From Halieaceae bacterium (GTDB lineage: Bacteria > Pseudomonadota > Gammaproteobacteria > Pseudomonadales > Halieaceae): a stretch of DNA of 64,000 nucleotides. Shown piece by piece: positions 21,931 to 36,010 of this stretch (its first letter is position 1; each line of letters opens with the position of its first letter). The DNA lies in contig CACOYM010000002.1 of NCBI GenBank assembly GCA_902631395.1, forward strand, positions 62,001-126,000. The letters are read 5' to 3'. Under the pieces are notes generated by a model. The model did not search any database. It was not told the origin of the DNA and saw only the letters and a list, made by a program, of their open reading frames with translations. A program made the position numbers and the translations under genes.

Positions 21931-22668
21931 TCAGGGCAAGGTGTCCAAAGCGCGGAGACAACCGCGCGCTCCGGACGCCTCACACTGCGACAACACAAAC
22001 AATGCGCTCTGAGTTTCTAACTCATCAATTCTCATCGATGCCGCATTTCGAATTTCCTCGGCTTGCTGCTGGCCCTGAATCAACGCTAAAGAGGCCCAGA
22101 CATATGCTTGCGCTGATCGTCGCTTCACGTCCGTTCCATCAAGCAACATGAACGAAAGCATATATTGACTGTCTGCATATCCTTCAATCGCTGTCTCCCT
22201 GAACCCCTCGTAGGCCAACCGCCTATTCTGGATTTGCCCCTCACCCTCGAAATAACTCAGGGCAATCATGTAACGGCTTTCAGTTAGGCCCTTTTCAGCT
22301 GCTTTTCGGAAATGAATCAACCCTTGCGCCCAGCTTTTCGCTGCGCCATGGCCGTCAACGTACATCATGCCGAGGTTATGATCCGCTTCAGCTAAACCAC
22401 CGCTGGCCGCACGGCGATACCATTCCATCGCAACGTCATACTGCTGCGTCACGCCTAGGCCCTCTTCATACATGTACCCTATGTTGTGCTGAGCCTCAGG
22501 ATCCCCAGCTTCAGCCAAATCAGACCACGATCGCATAGCCGTGGCATAGTGCTGACGCTCCATCGCAGCGAGACCTGCCCGAAGTTTGTCCAGACGCATA
22601 TCGGCAGCCACCGTAGCAGGCAGAAATACCGCAATACCAAACATAATAAGGCGCTTAGTTGCGTTCAC
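21931..22668 (-). CDS. Sel1-like repeat protein, exported
   Basis: A signal peptide-like N-terminus (MFGIAVFLPATVAAD) precedes consecutive Sel1-type repeats, for example AEAGDPEAQHNIGYMYEEGLGV, ASGGLAEADHNLGMMYVDGHGA and AEKGLTESRYMIALSYFEGEG. These alpha/alpha repeats are protein-interaction scaffolds in the periplasm. The start overlaps the CLC gene by 14 bases, so it belongs to the end of the long motility-associated run. SLR proteins in flagellar loci can act as scaffolds (MotX carries Sel1 repeats), but this one is not shown to be MotX. Confidence 0.87.
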   Translation of the reverse strand: MNATKRLIMFGIAVFLPATVAADMRLDKLRAGLAAMERQHYATAMRSWSDLAEAGDPEAQHNIGYMYEEGLGVTQQYDVAMEWYRRAASGGLAEADHNLGMMYVDGHGAAKSWAQGLIHFRKAAEKGLTESRYMIALSYFEGEGQIQNRRLAYEGFRETAIEGYADSQYMLSFMLLDGTDVKRRSAQAYVWASLALIQGQQQAEEIRNAASMRIDELETQSALFVLSQCEASGARGCLRALDTLP

Positions 22669-24349
22669 GGCCCTTTACCTCTTCCTGGCGATCAAGAGTG
22701 CCGCCAAGAATGGCGCCTTCGCTCAGGCATCCGACTAACTTGCCAGTCTCGTCCACCACAGGGATAGCTTCGCCGACGAACTGCCTAGCGACTGCCAAAG
22801 CTTGCTGCAGATCATCACCCATATGCAATACGAGGTAGTCATTTTCGATCAGCGAGTGAGCGGGTTGTTCTCCGTTAGCGAGGGCCGTCAATATGGGCAC
22901 CACCCCCACCAGCGTACCCTGCGCATCCACAACGTACGCCTCAGTTCTGTGGGCCTCCCGCAGGTGCGACACAATGTCTTCGCCGGTCATAGTTCCTGTC
23001 ACAGGCGCCACCGACTCGACATCAAGATCCGCTACGGCGATATCCTTCAGTGACAAAAATTCCCGACCTTGCCTCAAATCGAAGCCACGTGAGATAAGCT
23101 GCCGATCAAAAAACGAATAGCAGAAGAGGCGAGTCGAAATAAAGGATGACATTGATACAGCGAGGATGGCTGCAACGGCAAACTCGTAGCTACGGGTGAA
23201 CTCAAACACAATTAGTACCACGCCGATAGGCGCACCGATCACAGAGCCAGTGACGGCCGCCATTCCCACCACAGTCAGCATCACAATGGCCGACGGATCA
23301 AAACCAAAACCCACTGCAACAAATCCCGCTAGATACCCGAGCGACGCGCCAAGAAACAGTGCAGGGGAGAACACGCCGCCCACAAGTCCGAGGCCTATAC
23401 AGATCACTGTTGCCGCCAATTTGGCAATCAGCATTAGCGCGGCCTCGGCTGCAAGCTTTTCTCCTGCCAACAAGTCATTCACCGACTGGGTTCCCAGACC
23501 GACCGCCTCTGGCACCAGCATGCCAATCACTGCCATAAGCGTCGCAGCCAGTAACAGCACAGCTAAATCGTTATTCCGCGCTTTCGCCCAAGTGGCCGTC
23601 CACAAAAGCGAGCGCATGAAAACAATAGCCAACACAGCAGCACACGCACCTAATCCCAACACGACGGGGATTAACCCCCAATCAGTAGCGCTGGCCGTCA
23701 CGGAATAAGGCGATACACGATCAAAGAACAGTGGAGTAACCGCCGCTGCAACAATGGCCGAGACGGTAATCGGCGCTACAGCCCGCACCGCGAAATGCCT
23801 TAATAGCGCCTCAGACACCAGAACAACCGCAGCAATAGGTGCGCCGAAACCGGCAGAAATCGCTGCTGCGACTCCACAGGCCAGATAAATGTCAGGGGTC
23901 AAGCGCGTGGGAAAGAGTGCCCGGACTTGAGCACCGACTGAAGCCCCGAAATGCAAAACGGGCCCGTACTGCCCCACCGAGGCGCCAGCACTGGCCGAAA
24001 TAAAAGCTGCGGTGGTCGAAATAAAGCCTTCCCGCGCGGGAAATGTAGCGTCCGGGCGGTGCGCGCCCAATATAGCGTCTGCCGGGCCATGCCAGCGATC
24101 CATTTTAAATGCTTGCTTGAGTCCATATATCCCGAAGGCGCCGGTAATCAAGGCAGCCCAACGAATCAGTCCCGAGCTAAGGGCGCTCTGTCCAGCCATT
24201 TGATCACGAATCAAACCATCAATGGCGTCTACGCCCAATACAAACAGATTAGCGGCAAGACCGCCCAAAATACCGATGACCAACCCCACAAATATGACCC
24301 GAACCAGCTCGAGGCCTAGCTCCTTGAGAGATGTAGTCAGGAGTAGCAT
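22655..24349 (-). CDS. CLC-type chloride channel/antiporter with C-terminal CBS pair, atypical gate
   Basis: About ten to twelve membrane spans are seen. They include the CLC signature regions GASVGQYGPVLHFGAS and GGVFSPALFLGASLG, followed by a cytoplasmic CBS pair (VTGTMTGEDIVSHLRE; EAIPVVDETGKLVG). In most CLC proteins the first motif reads G-R/K-E-G-P, with the glutamate acting as the gate; here that position is Tyr (about residue 128). Loss of the gating glutamate usually turns transport into passive conduction or changes ion coupling. It overlaps the tiny lipoprotein gene upstream and the Sel1 gene downstream, within the run that starts at motA. Confidence 0.9.
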   Translation of the reverse strand: MLLLTTSLKELGLELVRVIFVGLVIGILGGLAANLFVLGVDAIDGLIRDQMAGQSALSSGLIRWAALITGAFGIYGLKQAFKMDRWHGPADAILGAHRPDATFPAREGFISTTAAFISASAGASVGQYGPVLHFGASVGAQVRALFPTRLTPDIYLACGVAAAISAGFGAPIAAVVLVSEALLRHFAVRAVAPITVSAIVAAAVTPLFFDRVSPYSVTASATDWGLIPVVLGLGACAAVLAIVFMRSLLWTATWAKARNNDLAVLLLAATLMAVIGMLVPEAVGLGTQSVNDLLAGEKLAAEAALMLIAKLAATVICIGLGLVGGVFSPALFLGASLGYLAGFVAVGFGFDPSAIVMLTVVGMAAVTGSVIGAPIGVVLIVFEFTRSYEFAVAAILAVSMSSFISTRLFCYSFFDRQLISRGFDLRQGREFLSLKDIAVADLDVESVAPVTGTMTGEDIVSHLREAHRTEAYVVDAQGTLVGVVPILTALANGEQPAHSLIENDYLVLHMGDDLQQALAVARQFVGEAIPVVDETGKLVGCLSEGAILGGTLDRQEEVKGRERN

Positions 24350-24534
24350 TTCAGCGCTGCCGTTTTCTTTAGTGTTTCAACGGGGTACTCCGCCTGATGC
24401 TCTCGGATGTAACGATCAAAACATTGCTTTCGCTCTGCATCAGTGGGTTCATCCTGCGCGCACGCTCCCAGAAGCAGTATGACTGTCCCCCCCGCAACAC
24501 AGCAGCGTCGGAGGGGTTTTCGATAAGCATTCAA
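24337..24534 (-). CDS. Tiny lipoprotein of unknown function
   Basis: The 65-residue product has a basic N-terminus, a hydrophobic core and a lipobox LLGAC, leaving a mature protein of about 40 residues rich in charged residues with two further cysteines (KQCFD, ALKCYS). I do not recognise the family. It overlaps the stop of the upstream coiled-coil gene by four bases and the CLC start by 13, so it is cotranslated with both. Confidence 0.7.
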   Translation of the reverse strand: MNAYRKPLRRCCVAGGTVILLLGACAQDEPTDAERKQCFDRYIREHQAEYPVETLKKTAALKCYS

Positions 24535-26261
24535 GGCTCGCTACCACCATCAAGTGACGTGATCATATTGGCCTCATCCAGCACCTTACCCAGCCGGATC
24601 ATTGCGCTGGCCATGGCGTCCTCGACGTTGGTCGCGAATGCGAGGCGCCTGTCCACTGCCGATTTATATTCACCGATCAAAGTTGCCGCGTCCTGCGTCA
24701 AAACGTCAAGGCGAGCTTTCGTCTCTTCCGCATCTTTGTTGGCGCTATGTAATGCATCTTCGAGATTCCTCGTCAGCTCCTCTTTACGGCGCTGCACTGG
24801 CTCAAGGTGCCCTGCATATTGACGATCCGCGTCTCTCTCGGCGTCCGCCATTTTTTGATCCAGCTCTTCGATTCTTGCGCGCTGCTCCCGAATCGCCTCT
24901 CGCTGTTTCTTCATCCATTCAATGTATTGATCAATAGAATCCTCATAATCCACCTCATGCTCAGTGTCGCTTTCTTCAGAGGCAAAATCGCTGCTCGTCA
25001 ATGATTGCAGGACCGTCGCGGGCGGCTCGAGGGTCTCAGCGCCCAGTTTCTTGATCAATTCGTTTGCCTGATCTGCCTCAAGCTGAATCTCAGCTATCTG
25101 GCCTTTTATCTGCTGACCCTTTTGGGCAGCAATTGCAGTCTGCTCCCGAATCACATCGGTTAGTTCAGAAGAGAGCGAGCAAAGCCACTGGTTTTGAGTA
25201 CCGGACAGATCATCGCCATTCGGCTCACCTCTCAACCCGGCATCAATGAACGCAATGCATCTTCGGGAGTCCGCCAGCCGGCCCGCGCCTTGCTCTAACT
25301 CTACGCAGACATCCCGATAGTGTGACAAAGTATCGAGCTCTTGGGAGAAACAGCCGTCGAGCGCCTGCAAGCAGCTGGATGTCACACCACCCAGAACGTC
25401 GATAAATTCGTTCATATCGTCGCCATACCCACCAAAATGCTCAGACGCATCGACTGCGCGTTCACTTTGCAACCCGGCGCGGGCCTCACCTACCGCGCTG
25501 ATGAGCTGATCAGCATGAGCAAGATTCCCAATCAACTGCTCCGTCAAAGTTATCGCGTCGGCATGAACTCCATCTGTGTCATCACGCCCGCTCACCTCGC
25601 TGTCATCCGCTGCACCAGTTGGCTCCTCAGAGCCGCTCTCTGCGGTTAGAGACCCATCGACCACCTCTGAGGGCACCGCTAAATTGTCTTCACTATTGCC
25701 ATCTGTTTTTGAATCAGCGTTATCATCACTGTTGGCAGCCTCGCTGGTTATGAGACCTTCCTGCAGCTCCTCGACCAGAATTTGAAGCGCAATGCCCTGC
25801 TCAGCGAGATCTGGAGAATCCTCGATAGAGGTAAGGCATTTATTCAAAACTACAGCACGCTCAGTGAGACCGTCCGCCTCACCAGTCATTAAAATCGCAT
25901 GCAGCACCTCGTGACGGAAGGAGGTGAAGCCCTCAGAGAGCGGTGACATGCCCTCGGGAATTTGGCATAGGGCTGCGCCAACTGCTCGCAAGTCGGCATT
26001 GCTATCAACATTGATCAGTGCAAACTGATCGGTCACGGCCTTGATCACATCACTCATGGTTGCCCCCCTATCAGCTACTACTGGGGACTGTGAGGAGGGT
26101 GCTTGCTCGGGCGGATCAGATTCGTTTGGTGCATCAAGCCTCGTCGCCTCTTCAGCGTCGGTGAGCTCTTCGTCATCAGACGATTTACCAAAAAAACCAA
26201 AGAGCTTCATCGCGCGCCAGTCCCCCAGACAGTGCCTCACAGTCTGCTTATAGGACATCAT
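24531..26261 (-). CDS. Large acidic coiled-coil protein of unknown function
   Basis: I do not recognise the family. The 576 residues contain an acidic, Ser/Asp/Glu-rich low-complexity stretch (about residues 170-235). They also hold two helical regions with heptad character (about 375-400 and 450-540, e.g. QREAIREQRARIEELDQKM) and several cysteines in the middle. No signal peptide is evident, so it is probably cytoplasmic. An in-frame ATG at 26210 (MKLFGFFGKSSDDEE) is a plausible alternative start. It overlaps the tiny lipoprotein and follows the lipoprotein gene after 62 bases. Confidence 0.7.
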   Translation of the reverse strand: MMSYKQTVRHCLGDWRAMKLFGFFGKSSDDEELTDAEEATRLDAPNESDPPEQAPSSQSPVVADRGATMSDVIKAVTDQFALINVDSNADLRAVGAALCQIPEGMSPLSEGFTSFRHEVLHAILMTGEADGLTERAVVLNKCLTSIEDSPDLAEQGIALQILVEELQEGLITSEAANSDDNADSKTDGNSEDNLAVPSEVVDGSLTAESGSEEPTGAADDSEVSGRDDTDGVHADAITLTEQLIGNLAHADQLISAVGEARAGLQSERAVDASEHFGGYGDDMNEFIDVLGGVTSSCLQALDGCFSQELDTLSHYRDVCVELEQGAGRLADSRRCIAFIDAGLRGEPNGDDLSGTQNQWLCSLSSELTDVIREQTAIAAQKGQQIKGQIAEIQLEADQANELIKKLGAETLEPPATVLQSLTSSDFASEESDTEHEVDYEDSIDQYIEWMKKQREAIREQRARIEELDQKMADAERDADRQYAGHLEPVQRRKEELTRNLEDALHSANKDAEETKARLDVLTQDAATLIGEYKSAVDRRLAFATNVEDAMASAMIRLGKVLDEANMITSLDGGSEP

Positions 26262-26323: not shown

Positions 26324-27595
26324 TTACAGTGTCAACGCCTCACAGTCAGCCTCGGTGATATCGTATTGCGCGGCCTGAGAGGTCGGCACCGACTCGTAGC
26401 ATACGCGAACATAGCGCAACTTGCTGAGGGGGTCGCTATACTCGCTCCCACGTCGAGTATACAAATCAAAACGAACGACACTATCACTGATACCACTTTG
26501 CAATATCAACATCAGGCCTGATTGACCCGAGCCAGTGGCTTCACCGACGGACACGGCGTAACCGGCCTGGTCCGACAAATCGCAATTGTCAACGCTGATT
26601 GACTCAGCCGGGATAATCGAGCCGTCTCCTTCAGTAGCAGTAATGAAATCAGTGTCGTATCGCGCAAGGGTTGCTGAGATCCCGCAGCGGGGAGTTTCAA
26701 GGTTATAACTGTCTCCCACCATTTCGTCCTGTGAGACGTTCAGATAATCCAGATTCTCAAGGAGAGACGACCTATAAATTCCTGTGATGTCCAGATCAGG
26801 TGAAACATAAGCCTCACCAGCCACGGCAAAATCAATATCGAACGTGTCACCGGTCTCTTCATATGAGTAAGTTAGTCCCAGCGGTCCGGTCTGCTGATAA
26901 GTAACTAGAAGCCCTACCACAGTCCTTACTTGAAGCTGGTCATCTACTCTCTCTTTACACTGACCGGATCCCGTTGCCTCAACACCATTGACCTCTACAT
27001 CCGCCACGCATAGTAAATTAATGAATGCAGTATCGTCGGTGGCCTGAGAATACCAAAAAAGCGTCCCGGCGCGGGTGAGGACGAAATTGTTTTCATCGAT
27101 CTCCGTTACCTGGCTGCGCCCAATTGTTAGTGAATACTCGCTCTCCGCACCACCTCCATACCTTCCACCAAAATTGGCGTCGATAAACAGAGAAATCTCA
27201 TCCTCGGCAGATGCACTTCCTGAGGTGGCCGTCACCTTCACAACATACGTGCCTGCAAGCAGCGCTGTCCCTGAGATGGTTTTAGCGGTTCCATCATGAG
27301 TGAGCTCAACAGGACCATCGTAAGTGACCGATGCGCTGTCTGCACTCGTACCCGTCACACTGTAACTGAGCGAGACGCCTTCATCTGCACGATATTTTGT
27401 TTGCCCGGTCAGCTCGATTGATAACTCATCAGCAGGTGATAACGCTCCGCCATCTGCACCTGCGCCGGAGCCGGCCTCGTCGCCACCCGAGCCGATGCCG
27501 CATCCGGCTAACAGCGCTAAAAGAACAGCAAAGCAAAAATGTTGCTGGCGGCAGTGCCCTCTTAAAAACCACCTTCCCATCCGGTAAAAGCGCAC
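26324..27595 (-). CDS. Large lipoprotein with an Ig/cadherin-like domain
   Basis: The N-terminus has a clear lipobox (LLALLAGCGIGSGG) followed by a Gly/Ala linker. Residues about 65-145 read as a beta-sandwich of the PKD/cadherin-like kind (SIELTGQTKYRADEGVSLSYSV, then LLAGTYVVKVTATSGSASAED). The C-terminal 270 residues are beta-rich with paired cysteines and unrecognised. Its ATG overlaps the last base of the upstream small gene stop, and that gene overlaps motB, so an outer-membrane or stator-linked role is suggested by context only. Confidence 0.78.
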   Translation of the reverse strand: MRFYRMGRWFLRGHCRQQHFCFAVLLALLAGCGIGSGGDEAGSGAGADGGALSPADELSIELTGQTKYRADEGVSLSYSVTGTSADSASVTYDGPVELTHDGTAKTISGTALLAGTYVVKVTATSGSASAEDEISLFIDANFGGRYGGGAESEYSLTIGRSQVTEIDENNFVLTRAGTLFWYSQATDDTAFINLLCVADVEVNGVEATGSGQCKERVDDQLQVRTVVGLLVTYQQTGPLGLTYSYEETGDTFDIDFAVAGEAYVSPDLDITGIYRSSLLENLDYLNVSQDEMVGDSYNLETPRCGISATLARYDTDFITATEGDGSIIPAESISVDNCDLSDQAGYAVSVGEATGSGQSGLMLILQSGISDSVVRFDLYTRRGSEYSDPLSKLRYVRVCYESVPTSQAAQYDITEADCEALTL

Positions 27596-27939
27596 TAGGC
27601 GTCCTCCACGCAGATATGGCTTTGCAACATCACCATCTCTTGATCACGCCGGTACTTTGACGAATCCATAAACCAGATAACAAGGTATCCGTAGGTCTTG
27701 TACTCCTGGCAGAGCTGTTCACCCATAGTTTCGTAATTGAGGCCTGACTGCACGTCGGGTGACGGCCAGATAACTAAGGCGTCTTTAGACAGCCTGGCGT
27801 CGTCGATAGTAGAAACCGATTTGACTCGATCAAGAAACGCCTTCTGAGATTTGGTTTGGGCCGCAGCGTTACCAGCGGCTACGCTCAGCAATGCCAGAAT
27901 AATGACTGCAAGCAGCTTTGACGTATACCGTGACATCAT
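27595..27939 (-). CDS. Small exported protein cotranslated with the stator genes
   Basis: The 114-residue product has a signal peptide (LLAVIILALLSVAAGNAAAQ) and a mature domain of about 85 residues with two cysteines (QLCQEYKTYGYLVIWFMD, QSHICVED). I do not recognise the family. The ATG overlaps the stop of the second motB-like gene (ATGA) and its stop overlaps the following lipoprotein. That is the layout expected of a periplasmic partner of the stator, but this is inference. Confidence 0.72.
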   Translation of the reverse strand: MMSRYTSKLLAVIILALLSVAAGNAAAQTKSQKAFLDRVKSVSTIDDARLSKDALVIWPSPDVQSGLNYETMGEQLCQEYKTYGYLVIWFMDSSKYRRDQEMVMLQSHICVEDA

Positions 27940-29204
27940 CCCGCTCCCCCTTTGACCGTAATTTCTATGCGTCGGTTTTGTGCTCGCCCCACAGCCGTAT
28001 CGTTGGAAGCAATCGGCACCGTATCGGCGAAGCCGGTAACCGAAACTGCTCCGGGCTCAATAAAACCCTCCCCTACGAGATAATCGGCCACCGAAGCGGA
28101 ACGCGCCGCAGACAAATCCCAATTCGACTGGAAACGCTCGCTGAATGCGACAGGCACATTATCAGTATGGCCAGCGACGGTGACTTGGCCAGGACTATCT
28201 ACCAGGGCCTGTCCGACACTGGACAATACGCTGTAGAAGCTGGTGCGAAGGTCTGCGCTCCCGCTGACAAAAGCGCCCTGATCAGCGAGGCTGATCCTTA
28301 CCTCGTCGTCTATGCGTTCAACAGCTACCTGGCCATTGGCAATTTCTGTTGTGAGCCGGCTGCGAATCTGCTCGTACTCACTTTGAGCGACATCCTCACC
28401 TTCTTTTAAATCAGATCCTTGCGCGTTGTCGAAGGACTGCTGTTCGGTAGAGGGTGAGCGCAGTACTTGCACCTCGGATACTACCTCCGCCTGTGCTTGC
28501 GCGACCTTTGCGAATAGCGCCACAGTATCTTCGTCTAGACGCTGTCCAGTTTCCAATCCTTCTGCACCCTGATTTTCACCATTTTTCTGATCGGCGGTCA
28601 TAACAACGCTGATCTTGCCATCCGCCTCGGTAACTGAGATCTGGCCGCGCGTAATCTCGTCCTCAAGCGCGCTTCTCACCTTTTCAAGGTCAGACGAGTT
28701 GGGGTCGTTGGAGGGTTTAGTAGTGATCTTTAACTCGGGATCCGGCGGCTGCTCCTCGTCTGTGGTTTGCTCACTAATAGTGCTGAGCGCCGTGGGCTCA
28801 ACCTTAGCCTGCATAAACTGATCAGCAATAATATTGTCGGCCGTAGGGGGTTCAACCACCGGCACCACGCGCTGCACACCCATGCTGTCATTCATAGAAC
28901 CACTGACCTCTTTGAATTTCGGCACATTCATCTGCGCAAATGACAGTAGCAATACAAAAAATGCCATCAGGAGCGTTGCCATGTCGGCAAAAGTCGCCAT
29001 CCAGGCTGGAGCACCGCCACCCGCACACTTGGGGCATTCAACCGGCGGCAGTTCCTCGGGTGGTTCAGGGGGTGGACCCTCTGGTACTGGTTCTTCGGGC
29101 ACTGCAGATGCCTGCGCCTCGGGTGCATCAGCGGATTCCGCATCCACGAACTCGGCGACCTCGCCCCCAGGCGTTTCAAGCTCAACATTTTCGTCTTCTG
29201 CCAC
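27936..29204 (-). CDS. motB: Flagellar stator protein MotB/PomB, second tandem copy
   Basis: An acidic N-terminus leads to CPKCAGGGAPAWMATFADMATLLMAFFVLLLSFA, which holds the single membrane span and the ion-binding aspartate (about residue 74). A long linker precedes an OmpA-like peptidoglycan-binding domain (AGHTDNVP, NWDLSAARSASV, NRRIEITV). MotB/PomB pairs with MotA/PomA to convert ion flow into torque. It lies 20 bases after the longer copy and shares with it the same CPKC and FADMATLLM block, so this is a duplicated stator subunit. The stop overlaps the next gene. Confidence 0.92.
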   Translation of the reverse strand: MAEDENVELETPGGEVAEFVDAESADAPEAQASAVPEEPVPEGPPPEPPEELPPVECPKCAGGGAPAWMATFADMATLLMAFFVLLLSFAQMNVPKFKEVSGSMNDSMGVQRVVPVVEPPTADNIIADQFMQAKVEPTALSTISEQTTDEEQPPDPELKITTKPSNDPNSSDLEKVRSALEDEITRGQISVTEADGKISVVMTADQKNGENQGAEGLETGQRLDEDTVALFAKVAQAQAEVVSEVQVLRSPSTEQQSFDNAQGSDLKEGEDVAQSEYEQIRSRLTTEIANGQVAVERIDDEVRISLADQGAFVSGSADLRTSFYSVLSSVGQALVDSPGQVTVAGHTDNVPVAFSERFQSNWDLSAARSASVADYLVGEGFIEPGAVSVTGFADTVPIASNDTAVGRAQNRRIEITVKGGAG

Positions 29205-29224
29205 GACTAGGCCCTCCGAATCAC

Positions 29225-30736
29225 TCAGTTATCTTCCACAATCACTTCAATACGGCGATTTCGGGCACGGCCCGTTGCAGTATCGTTGCTGTTGAGTGGC
29301 CGCGTATCGGCGAACCCTGCGATTTGCACATTGCCACCCTCGAGGTTAGTCGAGTTAAGCAAAAAGTCGGCGATGGATGCAGCACGAGCTGCGGACAAAT
29401 CCCAATTTGATTTAAATCGCTCGCTGAAGGCAACGGGCACGTTATCGGTATGCCCCTCAACCATCACACTACCGGGATATTGGGCGAGGCTGTTGCCAAG
29501 ACGTGTCAGAGTCGGCGTAAACGCCTGCCGCAAATCGGAAGATCCGGAGGTGAAACTGCCCTGACTGGCGAGTCTGACGATGATCTTGTCACCATCTTTC
29601 TCCACCTCAGCAAGGCCTGCTGCAATCTCGTCCGACAGGTCAGCACGCAAGCGGTCATATTTTGACATGCCGGAAGCGTCAGCGCCCTGCGACTGTCTCC
29701 GGTTCGCATTTGCGCCTGCTTGGTTTCCTTGAGCCTTGTCCGCCAGGTGCACACCGACGTTAGAACTGAGCGTGGTGGAGACTTCAGCAACCTTGGCGAC
29801 CGCATCCAGCGTCTCCTGTGCCACTTGTCCACCCTTGCCTTCGCCTGCCGAGCCCACCTTGCCGCCTGCAGAGGCGGGTTCTACAAGGGTCACCTTGATC
29901 TCCCCGTTTTCGATACGGACGTCTGCCATACCTTTATTGAGCTCTTGCTCAAGCGCTTCCTGCACCTGCTGAAAATCGCTCTCGATCGGATCTTCGTATT
30001 CGCCCTCCTCGGTTTTTTTCTCGATGAAGTCGCCACGCACGAAGTCAGATCGCTGCTCCTTCACATCCAGCACTGAGCGCTCTGCAACGGCCGGGGTAAA
30101 GTTTTCCACCACGATACTTCGGGCCATTGGGATGGTGACTTTGGGCACAATTTTTTCGATACCAAACGCCTGCTTCAACGAACCCGCAACCTGCTTGAAC
30201 TTGGGAACCTCTGTCTCAGCGAAGCTCAGCAGCAAAACGAAAAAAGCCATCAGCAAGGTTGCCATATCGGCGAAGGTCGCCATCCAGGCAGGCGCGCCAC
30301 CACCAGCGCACTTCGGGCAATCGTCTTTGGGCTCTTCCGGTGGGGGTGGTCCGAGTGGAGGAAGATCGGTCTCTTCGAGCTCTTCTTCTGCATCGCCCTC
30401 CTGAGCATCTTCCACCGCAGCATCGCCATCATCCTCTGCTGGAGACTCGTCCTCAACAGTTTCATCTTCTGGAGTCTCAGAAGGGTCAGCAAGATCGTCA
30501 GCTTCATTCTGAGCCGCGGCGTCGAGGGAAATTTCACCAGTCACGTCAGCTGCATCAGGCCCGCGATAGGTGGAGTCCGTCCCATCAGATTCTGACGCAG
30601 GTGTCAGAGCTTCTTCATCCGCGCCATCAGCAGCATTCGCTACAGAATCTGTCTGGCCCGCGCTCATAACATCAGAGGGTGCCTGAACGTCAGTATTCTG
30701 GCCCTCGGCTCCGGATTTGATGTCATCATCAGCCAC
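29225..30736 (-). CDS. motB: Flagellar stator protein MotB/PomB, first tandem copy with long acidic extension
   Basis: The layout matches its neighbour: CPKC at about residues 140-143, the ion-site aspartate near 157 in TFADMATLLMAF, and an OmpA-like C-terminus (EGHTDNVP, NWDLSAARAAS, RNRRIEVIV). Its first 138 residues are an acidic, repeat-poor extension (many Asp, Glu and Ala) far longer than the short cytoplasmic tail of usual MotB. This extension is predicted to be cytoplasmic and disordered. It is 33 bases downstream of motA. Two B subunits per A gene suggest alternative or mixed stators. Confidence 0.92.
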   Translation of the reverse strand: MADDDIKSGAEGQNTDVQAPSDVMSAGQTDSVANAADGADEEALTPASESDGTDSTYRGPDAADVTGEISLDAAAQNEADDLADPSETPEDETVEDESPAEDDGDAAVEDAQEGDAEEELEETDLPPLGPPPPEEPKDDCPKCAGGGAPAWMATFADMATLLMAFFVLLLSFAETEVPKFKQVAGSLKQAFGIEKIVPKVTIPMARSIVVENFTPAVAERSVLDVKEQRSDFVRGDFIEKKTEEGEYEDPIESDFQQVQEALEQELNKGMADVRIENGEIKVTLVEPASAGGKVGSAGEGKGGQVAQETLDAVAKVAEVSTTLSSNVGVHLADKAQGNQAGANANRRQSQGADASGMSKYDRLRADLSDEIAAGLAEVEKDGDKIIVRLASQGSFTSGSSDLRQAFTPTLTRLGNSLAQYPGSVMVEGHTDNVPVAFSERFKSNWDLSAARAASIADFLLNSTNLEGGNVQIAGFADTRPLNSNDTATGRARNRRIEVIVEDN

Positions 30737-30769: not shown

Positions 30770-31525
30770 TTACGCCGCTGCAATCTTCTCGCGGGCTTTT
30801 GGTGAGACAAACGAAGCAAGCATGTCGCCCAGCACTCTGGGGTTACCTCCCTCCTGCATAAACAACACGCCCTCAATCACCAACTCGTTATTGGCTGACT
30901 CTAGCGCAGAGGCATTTTCAAGCTTTTGCGCGATAGGTAAACAGATCACGTTGGCCAGAATTGCACCGTACATTGTTGTCAGTAGCGCAACCGCCATCGC
31001 TGGCCCAATAGCTTTGGGGTCCGACATGTTACCCAGCATAATTACCAAACCGGCCAGGGTTCCGATCATCCCCATTGCCGGCGCAATTTCTCCCCATGCA
31101 CTAAAAATTTTTGCCCCCATTTCGTGACGCAGCTTCATCATGTCGTTGTCGCGATTGAGTGAGCTCTTTATTATTTCGCCATCGGTGCCATCAACCAGCA
31201 TGGAAACCGCCTTGGCTAAAAAGGGATTGGCAATATCCTGGCCCTCCAGCGCGATCATGCCGTCTTTGCGCGCGATGTTGGCAAGCTCAACGATTTGGGT
31301 AATGAGCTCAACCGGGTCATCAATCTTTCTAGAAAAAGCCTTACCCATCACACCCATTGCGCCTAAGAACTCTCCAAGGGAACACCGCGCCATCACCACG
31401 GCTATCGAACCTGCGACCACGATCAGCAGGGAGGCGGTGTCCACGAACGCAGGAGCGTTTTCAGATATAGCCATGAAAATAAGGCCAAACGCCGCTAGCA
31501 AACCTACAATCGTCGCAATATCCAT
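30770..31525 (-). CDS. motA: Flagellar stator protein MotA/PomA
   Basis: From the internal ATG at 31525 the protein begins MDIATIVGLLAAFG, like PomA, and has GAGGAG upstream; the ORF-track start adds 13 residues. Four membrane spans are seen, including LIVVAGSIAVVMARCSL and the conserved pore segment PAMGMIGTLAGLVIMLGNM with DPKAIGPAMAVALLTTMYGA. The charged cytoplasmic loop (about residues 55-140) contacts the rotor. PomA likeness suggests sodium coupling, but ion choice cannot be proven from sequence. It is the first gene behind a FliA-type promoter. Confidence 0.95.
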   Translation of the reverse strand: MDIATIVGLLAAFGLIFMAISENAPAFVDTASLLIVVAGSIAVVMARCSLGEFLGAMGVMGKAFSRKIDDPVELITQIVELANIARKDGMIALEGQDIANPFLAKAVSMLVDGTDGEIIKSSLNRDNDMMKLRHEMGAKIFSAWGEIAPAMGMIGTLAGLVIMLGNMSDPKAIGPAMAVALLTTMYGAILANVICLPIAQKLENASALESANNELVIEGVLFMQEGGNPRVLGDMLASFVSPKAREKIAAA

Positions 31526-31671
31526 GAACCGCTCCTCAACATTGAACAGGTGAAGTATCTCCACCTAATATAGCAACACCATTTACATAGGTGATAGGTA
31601 ACAATTAGCGCATTGCCTCCCACGAGACCAAAGCGGTGCGAAAAGTTGCCTAGCGCCTATTTTCTTCCCAA

Positions 31672-31793: not shown

Positions 31794-31970
31794 TATGTTG
31801 GGAGCGTCGAACCTTGTTATCGGGGTGGTTTGAGGCACAGAAAGTCGCCGGGTAAATCTGGTCGATACTCAATCATCACAGATTTATCGCGCTATATGAG
31901 GACGCTGCAATAGTGACGCAAACCACCAAACGCGTTGGATAAGGTCTGGTGAACTCAGGGGGTGCAGTTT

Positions 31971-32513
31971 ATGGGAGCGATAGGAAAGCATAGTAACCGG
32001 GTACTTTTATCGAGCCTAATGCTCCTTACGGTACTCGCTGGTTGCAATGACCAACGCAATCAACCCGATTGCAGCGACGTTTATAAAAGCCGCATTGATG
32101 AAAATGACTTCGACGTACTTGATGGTGGCATCGCGCTTCATAGACCTACAGGCCTTACGGTTACGCAATGTGCCGTTGGTCAACGGATGAGCAACTTCCG
32201 CTGTCGGGGGAACTCATTAAAGCTGAGCTGGGATGACGCTATGGCCTACGCCAGTGAAGTGGCAGAAAAAACGGGTGAAGCATGGCGGTTGCCGGAGAAA
32301 GGTGAAATACCAAAAATCCTCGAAAATAAATGCATTAACCCTGCCGCTAACCCGTTCGTATTCCCGGGGCTAGAGGTGGCGAATTTTTGGACGGCATCGA
32401 AGGGGCTTCACCAAGATAAATTTCGCTGTTCAATTTATTCCTATCAAGGCAGGGTTTTTTGCAGACAGGCACGAGATATTGCTCAACCTTTTTTACTGGT
32501 GAAAGGTAACTAG
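31971..32513 (+). CDS. DUF1566-type lipoprotein under FliA control
   Basis: A lipobox (TVLAGCND) predicts a lipoprotein. The mature domain resembles DUF1566/FGE-like folds: SWDDAMAYASEVAEKTGEAWRLPEKGEI, then NPFVFPGLEVANFWTAS, with six cysteines outside the lipobox. CAGGGGG sits about eight bases before ATG 31971, which is preferred over the GTG at 31962. It is transcribed divergently from the stator genes from its own sigma-28 promoter. That makes a cell-surface motility or adhesion accessory role likely, though none is known. Confidence 0.8.
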   Translation: MGAIGKHSNRVLLSSLMLLTVLAGCNDQRNQPDCSDVYKSRIDENDFDVLDGGIALHRPTGLTVTQCAVGQRMSNFRCRGNSLKLSWDDAMAYASEVAEKTGEAWRLPEKGEIPKILENKCINPAANPFVFPGLEVANFWTASKGLHQDKFRCSIYSYQGRVFCRQARDIAQPFLLVKGN

Positions 32514-33037: not shown

Positions 33038-34939
33038 TTACGCCCCCGAGATCTCCTGCGCACGACCGAGGTCGTTCATTGCTGCCTCGCACAGTGTAAT
33101 CAATTGTCTGGATGCCTGCGTAATCGAGTCATAGTAGTCCGCCGACACGCGAAGATTTTGCTCTAGATTCTGTACCGATTCCGTGGCTGCGTTCAGAGCC
33201 ATTGATTCCCGCGAGGTGTAGTATTTAAGAAGCGGGCATTCCTCGTCGAATATTCGCTTCAGACGTTGCTCCAAAAGATCGATTACCGTGCAGTCATTGC
33301 TGCGAGACTCGATTTTTTCAAGACACTCTTTTTGTATCTCGTCGCAAATCCTCGCAGCATGATCGAGCCGAACGACCATGCTGCTCAGTGCATCACTCAC
33401 AGCCTGGTAACGCGGCTTATAATCCCTAAAAGCTACGACAAGATTTTTTTTCGGCTTTTTAACCGACCGCTGCTCAACCAAAGGGTGTTGAGCAAACGGA
33501 ATATGCTCCCAACCCCGCAGGTAAGCACCGGATGCCGTAGAATTATGGAGCGGCATACGACCCTGATAGTAATTCGCTATGTTTTGGAACTCCCTTATAA
33601 AAGCGTAGTAATTTGGTAGAGTTGGGAGATCCTCCCCATTTATACCTTCACAAGTCAAATAGCCGTCCTGAGACAGGGCCTCCTCTTCTGTTGGCGAACC
33701 CCCTGTCACATATAGGCCGCCGCCAATACTTAGGTCCTGGCCCAACAGGGTGACGGAGCGCGCATTAAACTCGATCGCCATAACCGCAGATAGCGTGGAT
33801 ACAGAGGTACCACCGAATTTAGGTGACATGCCGCCGTGAAGCGTGGAAGAAAGCTCAGTCCCTAAAAAGCCAGGATCTGGATAGGGGAAGTGCGTGGCAA
33901 AGCCAGCCCCATAAAATGCGGGATGACAGCCCTCATTCAGAACCAATCCCACTTCAGCAATTTCCTGTCGATCTGGTATGGCGTAGCTATGATCACGAGG
34001 ATCTTGCCAGATCGCCAAATCTGGCTTGATGCCGGCGTCAAATAGTGCCGCCAAAGCCTTCACGCTAGCAAAGATCAAAAATTGGTCCTGTACTTCGGCC
34101 AACAATTCCAAATCCTTTTCTAAGGAAGGGCCCGGCGAGACAACCAACACGTCAGCACCATCAAACTCTGACTTTAACTCCATTATCGAGGGTAATTTAG
34201 CCAGAGTAGGCGCAGAGGCTAGCCATTGCTCTGCGGTTGTCTGGGGTAACCATTGTGTTGTAGACCCCGCAATAACAGCTGAGCCAATCGCGCGCGCTAC
34301 AGTGTGGAAATTTTGCTCATCCTCGGCATTAGCATGGGTTGCAATCAATGCCGCTCGTGGCACAGAGAATTGGTTAAGAAACAGTTCGAGGTGAGTATTT
34401 CCGGGATAGTGGCCTTCCAAAACAAACAGCGTGTCGCTATCAAGAAGAGCGGTCGCGCTGTCGCCTATCTCGGGGATATTTCGCGTCATCCATATAAATT
34501 TGGATTGCCCACGAGTCCGCAACACATCCCGAATGACCTCACCATCTGCGTCAGTGAGTAGCACAATATCTTGATTAAAATCCCATATGCCAGGCAATGC
34601 GTCGTCTACAAAAAGATTCATACCGGCACGAGATTGCCGCAATTCTTCGACAGAAAATGACGCTCGAGATTCGGTAATCCATTGGTGAATTGTCTGTAGG
34701 CGCTGATTTACCGACGAGGCGATTTCACTATACCGCATTAATTGATCAGGCCTTTCTGCCATAGTTTTTGCCTGTTCGCTATGGCTGATTTCTCCTGTAC
34801 CTCGGCTCTGAACCAGTAAGCTCCTTAAAAAACGGATCCGGTCGAGACATACCCGTGCCTCATCGATGGCGCCGGATTTAGCCATTTCGATAGCTTCGTT
34901 ACATTGGTCAAGCAGCGGTTCTAGAGTAGCCGAGAACAT
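33038..34939 (-). CDS. maf: Motility-associated factor glycosyltransferase (Maf, DUF115 family)
   Basis: The DUF115 core is readable as VLVVSPGPSLEKDLELL, then ASVKALAALFDAGIKPDLAIWQDP and FGGTSVSTLSAVMAIEFNARSVTLLGQDL, with GGLYVTGG close behind. Maf proteins transfer nonulosonic or related sugars to flagellin in the cytoplasm before export. ATG 34939 has GGAG eight bases upstream and is preferred over 34972, giving 633 residues. It is divergent from the first flagellin gene. No nonulosonate synthesis genes (pse/leg) occur in the window, so the donor must be made elsewhere or be a different sugar. Confidence 0.9.
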   Translation of the reverse strand: MFSATLEPLLDQCNEAIEMAKSGAIDEARVCLDRIRFLRSLLVQSRGTGEISHSEQAKTMAERPDQLMRYSEIASSVNQRLQTIHQWITESRASFSVEELRQSRAGMNLFVDDALPGIWDFNQDIVLLTDADGEVIRDVLRTRGQSKFIWMTRNIPEIGDSATALLDSDTLFVLEGHYPGNTHLELFLNQFSVPRAALIATHANAEDEQNFHTVARAIGSAVIAGSTTQWLPQTTAEQWLASAPTLAKLPSIMELKSEFDGADVLVVSPGPSLEKDLELLAEVQDQFLIFASVKALAALFDAGIKPDLAIWQDPRDHSYAIPDRQEIAEVGLVLNEGCHPAFYGAGFATHFPYPDPGFLGTELSSTLHGGMSPKFGGTSVSTLSAVMAIEFNARSVTLLGQDLSIGGGLYVTGGSPTEEEALSQDGYLTCEGINGEDLPTLPNYYAFIREFQNIANYYQGRMPLHNSTASGAYLRGWEHIPFAQHPLVEQRSVKKPKKNLVVAFRDYKPRYQAVSDALSSMVVRLDHAARICDEIQKECLEKIESRSNDCTVIDLLEQRLKRIFDEECPLLKYYTSRESMALNAATESVQNLEQNLRVSADYYDSITQASRQLITLCEAAMNDLGRAQEISGA

Positions 34940-35044
34940 TCCGAAATCTCCAATAATGCCCCGCATTTTCAAAATGAAGCGGTGCCTTAATCAACACGCT
35001 GTTTCTGCTTGCAAAAATTGGGCCAAAATAAAGCGCTTGGAAAC

Positions 35045-35071
35045 TAAAGGATGCCCTTAATCCTCCGATAG
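35045..35071 (+). promoter_or_regulatory. Sigma-28 (FliA) promoter of flagellin 1
   Basis: TAAAGGAT, exactly 11 bases, TCCGATAG. It lies about 75 bases upstream of the flagellin 1 start and matches the other FliA promoters of the window. Confidence 0.83.
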
Positions 35072-35146
35072 AACTATTGAATGAGGTTGTCGCAGGCAAA
35101 AGTTAGGACATGCCGCGTCAAAGTGACTAATAAGTAGGAGGCCGTG

Positions 35147-36010
35147 ATGGCAGTAGTTAATACCAACGTGAACGCTACGGTTGCGCAGAACGCATTGATT
35201 CGCAACGAGCGTCAAATGAACACCGCTATGGAGCGGCTGTCAACAGGCCAAAGAATCAATGGCGCAAAGGACGATGCGGCAGGTCTGGCGATTTCATCTC
35301 GCATGACTTCACAAATTCTGGGCCTGGAAGCGGGCATTAGAAATGCAAATGATGCTATCAGCATGATTAGCACCGCAGATGGAGCGTTGGTTGAAGTTAC
35401 CAACATGCTGCAGCGGATGCGCGAACTTGCGGTACAGGCCTCCAATGGGACTACTACAGAAGATGACCGCACTTTCCTTAACTCCGAGTACCAGAACCTG
35501 ATTACTGAGATCGACCGCATTGCACAAAACACACAGTGGAACGGTGGAGCGATCCTTAACCATACGACTACGGCTAGCAGCACATATAAGTATCAAGTCG
35601 GAGCGAACGGTGGCCAAACAATTGCTGTGGACTTTGGAGACTTCAATAACACTGGGGCCTCAGGCGTTATGCAGAACGTGAACTCGGCAAATGGCAGTAT
35701 TGCGGCTGGCACTACTGCGTCCGCTATTACAACTGGATCAGCGGCCATCACATCGATCGACTCTGCTATTACCGCAGTAAATACGCAGCGATCGACTTTC
35801 GGTGCCGCTATTAACCAACTTACTTACGCAGTTGACAATCTAGCTAGTGTTAAAGTTAATGCGGAAGCTTCTCGCAGCCGGATTCTTGATACGGATTACG
35901 CGCTGGAGACCTCTGAGCTTGCCAGAACACAGATCATCCAGCAGGCGGGTACCGCGATGCTGGCGCAGGCCAACCAACTGCCTCAAACGGTGCTTTCGCT
36001 GCTGCAGTGA
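35147..36010 (+). CDS. fliC: Flagellin 1
   Basis: The D0/D1 ends are typical: MAVVNTNVNATVAQNAL, ERLSTGQRINGAKDDAAGLAISSRM, and a C-terminal ELARTQIIQQAGTAMLAQANQLPQTVLSLLQ-type helix. The middle is short and Ala/Ser/Thr-rich (GTTASAITTGSAA), so surface domains D2/D3 are nearly absent; length is 287 residues. ATG 35147 has TAGGAGG five bases upstream; the track adds one GTG-coded residue. Flagellin forms the filament and is exported with FliS help. A FliA promoter and a strong terminator flank it. Confidence 0.96.
   Translation: MAVVNTNVNATVAQNALIRNERQMNTAMERLSTGQRINGAKDDAAGLAISSRMTSQILGLEAGIRNANDAISMISTADGALVEVTNMLQRMRELAVQASNGTTTEDDRTFLNSEYQNLITEIDRIAQNTQWNGGAILNHTTTASSTYKYQVGANGGQTIAVDFGDFNNTGASGVMQNVNSANGSIAAGTTASAITTGSAAITSIDSAITAVNTQRSTFGAAINQLTYAVDNLASVKVNAEASRSRILDTDYALETSELARTQIIQQAGTAMLAQANQLPQTVLSLLQ

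Follow-up and report, generated by a model that had tools for sequence, protein, structure and literature searches.

Two co-retained MotB subunits in a putative Na+-type stator operon of Gammaproteobacteria

The flagellar stator operon of a Halieaceae bacterium encodes, next to a single MotA, two adjacent MotB proteins that are retained together across many lineages of Gammaproteobacteria. Most likely, the two would form an unlike pair inside one MotA ring, in a stator of the Na+ type, a reading that we regard as evenly balanced between right and wrong. The window, that is the whole stretch of 64,000 nucleotides analysed, belongs to an assembly of 2.3 Mb that is 88.8% complete. On its minus strand a PomA-like motA gene is followed, in the order of transcription, by motB1 and motB2 with gaps of 33 and 20 bases (Table 1), the B genes sitting directly downstream of the MotA/PomA gene, as expected for MotB/PomB. 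Both motB frames begin with GTG. The motA frame (30770-31564) is open from a GTG at 31564, and a start at the ATG at 31525, giving 251 aa, is likely because orthologues align from Met14.

Table 1. Features of the stator locus, in window coordinates
Feature	Position	Strand	Evidence
MotA/PomA-like A subunit	30770..31525	-	MotA_ExbB Pfam 94 bits; phmmer to 8bri_A, E 4.6e-72; GT + ALLTT motifs
MotB1, first copy, 503 aa	29225..30736	-	MotB_plug + OmpA; p1 clade, support 100/100
MotB1 acidic N-terminal tail, residues 1-139	30320..30736	-	composition; predicted disorder, pLDDT about 36-47 to residue 130
MotB1 CPKC (140-143) + span (151-173) with Asp157	30218..30319	-	invariant columns C140, C143, W151-M158, D157
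MotB1 linker half-OmpA-like domain, residues 250-331	29744..29989	-	AF2 model; hhalign vs own OmpA, E 5e-8
MotB1 OmpA-type peptidoglycan-binding domain, residues 357-503	29225..29668	-	Pfam OmpA; Foldseek best match 3wpw
MotB2, second copy, 422 aa	27936..29204	-	MotB_plug + OmpA; p2 clade, support 100/99
MotB2 CPKC (57-60) + span (68-90) with Asp74	28935..29036	-	protein identical to MotB1 block
MotB2 linker half-OmpA-like domain, residues 170-249	28458..28697	-	AF2, moderate confidence; hhalign vs own OmpA, E 2e-8
Divergent neighbour: small lipoprotein-like protein, Lcl_C domain	31962..32513	+	Pfam Lcl_C

The original prediction, made from the DNA letters and their open reading frames, was that two adjacent MotB-like proteins share a CPKC block and an OmpA domain, and Pfam, NCBIfam and alignment all confirm it. 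MotB_plug matched MotB1 and MotB2 with 67.5 and 66.1 bits (cut-off 24), OmpA was found in both, and both passed the cut-off of the NCBIfam model NF006508, ‘MotB family protein’ (270 and 268 bits against 259), as did the first copy of another locus (L042). This is a general subfamily model, which does not tell the copies apart. A single MotA had been proposed to serve both, and this also held: the operon MotA is resembled only by the copy in the window among the four MotA_ExbB matches of this 88.8% complete genome, and a Pfam search of the same assembly found MotB1 and MotB2 as its only MotB_plug proteins. Because the assembly is incomplete, a further stator gene could be absent from it.

The two B proteins are 46% identical over 361 residues, and identical from CPKC through LLLSFA, i.e. 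over the block from CPKC to the span. Between the copies of one genome, identity falls to 19% in the linker and 53% in the OmpA domain. The ion-binding aspartate (D157 in MotB1, D74 in MotB2) and the columns C140, C143 and W151-M158 (MotB1 numbering) are invariant in first, second and single copies, and the peptidoglycan-binding motifs GHTD, NW.LS..R and GR..NRRIE are kept in both copies. A span helix was predicted in both AF2 models (residues 150-173 in MotB1); a post-span helix was modelled in MotB1 (179-191) and is not clear in MotB2, where pLDDT is low. Non-synonymous differences amounted to 0.035 and 0.043 per site for the two copies versus 0.70 for synonymous ones, indicating strong purifying selection. 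Both copies thus look functional, and degeneration of one of them, through loss of plug or peptidoglycan-binding site, is ruled out by the conserved aspartate, span, plug match and peptidoglycan-binding residues together with this selection. Few positions clearly separate first from second copies; the strongest (window 228/145) stands at an indel and is maybe an alignment effect. Immediately ahead of the span, first and second copies carry a CPxC motif with hardly any variation (30308-30319 and 29025-29036, minus strand), and CxxCxxC is frequent there in single-B relatives. Two adjacent CPxC motifs could bind metal or be redox-active.

As to the coupling ion, three threonines form the Na+ site of Vibrio PomA (PMC10374538), and on alignment of the window MotA to 8bri all three (T158, T185 and T186 of Vibrio PomA) proved to be conserved. 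The GT and ALLTT motifs that hold them were present in 52 of the 52 tandem MotAs examined. Judged by these motifs, a Na+-type stator is the best explanation.

The long N-terminal stretch of the first copy was indeed found to be acidic, with 139 residues before the CPKC cysteine and 47 D+E versus 4 K+R over the 150 positions preceding the span. As for the proposed N-terminal contrast between the copies, it holds for length, MotB2 having 56 residues before its CPKC, and not for acidity, since both tails are acidic. Median net charge was -13 for first copies, -16 for second copies and -13 for single-B relatives, and long tails recur elsewhere in first copies (L103) as well as second ones (L105, L109, L110). 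Because all three kinds of protein have acidic tails, we take that of MotB1 as an elaboration of a general feature rather than a distinguishing one. It had been suggested that the acidic part senses ions or binds a regulator. This found no support: the tail is predicted to be disordered (pLDDT about 42 in the AF2 model), in intact close relatives the stretch before the span measures 151, 149, 146, 97 and 67 residues, and all classes commonly have shorter acidic tails. A conserved sensory domain is ruled out by this lack of predicted fold and variable length. At one further locus (L036:5540-5990), motB1 has an acidic tail that starts alike (VADDDIK), and its frame is broken before a proline-rich stretch, which may be a sequencing or assembly error.

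Between plug and OmpA domain, both MotBs were modelled with a folded helix-strand-strand-helix-strand unit, at high confidence in MotB1 (block pLDDT mostly above 90 for helices and strands) and moderate confidence in MotB2. By profile comparison, done separately for first, second and single copies, the unit is related to the first half of the protein's own OmpA region (E 2e-8 to 5e-8), and it seems to have arisen when the first half of the peptidoglycan-binding domain was duplicated within the protein. It belongs to the whole long-linker family, single-B relatives included, and predates the split of the two copies. PomB-type proteins of 300-330 aa are about 80-100 residues shorter, from which we infer that they do without it.

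Relatives of MotB1 and MotB2 were scanned in one genome per species, yielding at least 79 loci; the scan relied on the motif WMATFAD, and more diverged pairs would be missed by it. Two adjacent B genes were present in at least 58 loci (57 relatives and the window), with a median gap of 14 bases and with motA in view upstream in at least 53. The hosts are Halieaceae/Luminiphilus, to which the closest loci of known origin among the matches listed also belong, SAR92/Porticoccaceae, K189A, Pseudohongiella and unclassified Gammaproteobacteria; a few bins are named as other groups, and these names look mislabelled.

In a tree of 93 B proteins, the first copies formed one clade (support 100/100) and the second copies another (100/99), in 200 of 200 bootstrap trees, and a quick tree of 138 B proteins gave the same picture except for loci cut by contig ends. 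This complete separation by copy points to a single ancient duplication as the source of both clades. A recent duplication is ruled out by the two old clades and by saturated synonymous sites. Near the base of the tree lie single-B relatives that share the long linker (Litorivicinus, MOLA814 and others); for the grouping of first and second copies together to the exclusion of these relatives, the AU test gave p 0.11.

Retention of the pair was strict. First and second copies were always side by side in the loci examined, and among the matches listed neither was found alone, except at most 131 bases from a contig end or cut by one (L078, L089, L099, L104 and L108); the single-B loci with room on both sides, among the same matches, all come from other lineages. 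MotB_plug was also searched for in 112 genomes of another, SAR92-like family. In three of its genera, a same-strand tandem about 1-1.3 kb apart was present in 37 of the 42 genomes with any MotB_plug match, and in the other five, counted from coordinates, the match lay no more than about 1 kb from where its contig ends. In other genera of the family the matches were not in tandem. When 38 tandem genomes were searched whole, 33 of them contained no MotB_plug protein besides the pair. MotB is missing altogether from many genomes of the same genera, and the pair therefore seems to disappear as a unit together with motility. Two side observations concern unusual pairs. One SAR92-like genome (G365) carries two separate tandem motB pairs, on contigs C55 and C93, in the same places as another genome (G311). 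Much diverged, shorter tandem MotBs of about 320-400 aa occur in related genomes (L112, L114 and low-scoring pairs, e.g. G341 and G366).

We asked how alike the two copies of one genome are, segment by segment. In the CxxC segment they were more alike than copies of different genomes (0 of 5000 shuffles), and this persisted when shuffling was done inside clades only (0 of 3000). The same shuffling gave no such likeness in the linker and only tiny effects in the plug and OmpA parts. MotB1 and MotB2 of the window agree in 11 of 30 informative codons of the CPKC-span block and in 25 of 80 of the OmpA domain; within genomes, codon identity was 0.41 in the block and 0.36 in the OmpA domain. Recent gene conversion is thus ruled out for the identical span of the window, the codons being near saturation, and because they are as diverged as elsewhere, the block would have been kept alike by selection. 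In some other lineages, codon likeness could be explained by gene conversion. The within-genome likeness of the CxxC segment, a hint of co-adaptation of the two copies, could partly come from older gene conversion or from both copies adapting to one MotA. Charges next to the span were complementary between the copies (rho -0.49), but with only about four independent clades behind this value we do not count it as evidence.

Several neighbouring genes were recorded on the way. A homologue of the Lcl_C protein occurs in at least 65 of the compared loci, both tandem and many single-B ones, nearly always divergent beside motA; it is a possible unrecognised stator partner. Directly 3' of motB2 lie three genes of unknown function (27595-27939, 26324-27595 and 24531-26261, minus strand), common only to the nearest Halieaceae loci among the matches listed, with a four-base overlap between the first of them and the motB2 stop. 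Genes near the stator further include, in more than 40 loci each, one for a CLC channel and one for a Sel1-repeat protein that matches MotX weakly (below cut-off), and, in at least 35, a K+ channel gene with a TVGYG filter; this neighbourhood lies at 21931-24349 (minus strand) in the window and, for example, at L109:6396-7424. At 33038-36010, beside a flagellin gene near the stator operon, an MptE-like protein matches the flagellin modification protein PseD weakly. No sigma-54 site was found within 400 bases upstream of motA, and the total for the whole window was not above chance.

How might the two B proteins work together? Solved stators consist of five A and two B chains (PMC9389320), and by analogy five MotA would form a ring enclosing two B helices. 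To judge from the short gaps, motB1 and motB2 are probably co-transcribed; because of this, and because their spans are the same, both proteins should fit the same MotA ring. With one MotA, probably co-transcribed B genes and identical spans, mixed units are expected by mass action, and most likely each unit would have one MotB1 and one MotB2 in its two B positions. That the copies are strictly co-retained suggests that this mixed form may even be required. Since plug, linker and peptidoglycan-binding parts have diverged, a division of labour would be possible, in which, for example, one chain mainly gates the channel and the other mainly sets the place and time of anchoring. An obligate hetero-pair of this kind, MotA5-MotB1-MotB2, with gating and wall anchoring split between unlike chains, is a tentative proposal, in which our confidence falls somewhat below even.

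The main rival to the hetero-pair is that the operon makes two homodimeric stators using one MotA, MotA5-MotB1(2) and MotA5-MotB2(2), which replace each other in the motor as load, salt or the state of the cell wall changes and mix by chance only. We consider it a serious possibility, if a doubtful one. One MotA, identical spans and divergent plug, linker and OmpA parts suit it as well, and stators generally exchange dynamically in running motors, according to a review (PMC9039648). The Aquifex operon has the same pattern, and by its published description chimeras carrying either MotB span worked singly with MotA in E. coli, so that one B type can suffice there (PMC4525482). However, optional alternatives should vanish in some lineages, and no intact locus among the matches listed has lost one; the copies keep constantly side by side, and their common operon offers no obvious separate control. 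Co-retention is also compatible with two different homodimers if both are needed. Of the mixed and the alternative stators that had been envisaged from the start, the former remain plausible, while an ancient duplication co-kept across many lineages disfavours optional alternatives and favours obligate cooperation.

Two further readings carry less weight. Instead of forming half of the channel, MotB2 (or MotB1) might serve mainly as a non-conducting helper, such as an assembly factor or an additional anchor to the wall. In favour of this, divergence is far greater in the periplasmic parts than in the spans, and each copy has the additional half-OmpA domain predicted by modelling. Against it, both copies keep the entire span almost without variation, aspartate and flanks included, and a helper would have no need of this; we hold this reading to be improbable. 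That adjacent paralogues within one operon reflect nothing more than redundancy for gene dosage, or a recent duplication whose products have not split in function, is very improbable: two strongly conserved copies of only 46% identity, with saturated synonymous sites, form two old clades, and the tree largely refutes it.

In models of the flagellar motor, the two B chains inside the five-fold ring are taken to be identical. Were the hetero-pair true, B chains from unlike genes would let each position be mutated separately, and it could then be tested whether ions pass the two Asp sites in turn, which of the plugs does the gating and which of the chains the anchoring. The two B chains are made non-equivalent by rotor contact (review PMC9389320). 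Common marine bacteria are among the lineages in question (SAR92, Halieaceae, Pseudohongiella and K189A).

Among known systems, Vibrio PomA/PomB (PDB 8bri, 8zyv and 3wpw) are the closest solved A and B subunits by sequence. The window MotA shares the Na+-site threonines of PomA, and the best Foldseek match of the MotB1 periplasmic domain is the PomB periplasmic fragment 3wpw (TM 0.89 by target). Vibrio PomB differs in being 315 aa long, without a counterpart of the extra linker domain in the alignment, and in its short N-terminus with CDC instead of CPxC. The gliding motor AglR/AglQ/AglS of Myxococcus xanthus likewise combines one MotA homologue with two MotB-like homologues; unlike the present proteins, it is not a flagellar motor, and its AglQ/S domains are TolR-like peptidoglycan-binding domains, not OmpA (PMC9389320). 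Whether AglQ and AglS form homo- or heterodimers is stated there as unknown, a question on which a hetero-pair would bear.

A 2025 survey of MotAB evolution assigns proteins as B subunits from their position beside the A gene, and the words tandem and heterodimer are absent from it (PMC12505986). Our literature search, with most subscription journals outside its scope, found no paper on the gammaproteobacterial motB pair. The gene order of one A and two B is itself already known, from the Na+-driven motA/motB1/motB2 operon of Aquifex aeolicus (Takekawa et al. 2015, PMC4525482). By the published description, its two MotBs are 97% alike in span and N-terminal region and very different in their periplasmic parts (PMC4525482); with the order motA-motB1-motB2, near-identical spans and divergent periplasmic parts, the present operon is of this type, and the gammaproteobacterial pair is a variant of it. 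The variant differs in its extra half-OmpA domain, and whereas that account concerns a single organism with each MotB tested separately, the pair described here is old, widespread and strictly co-retained in Gammaproteobacteria.
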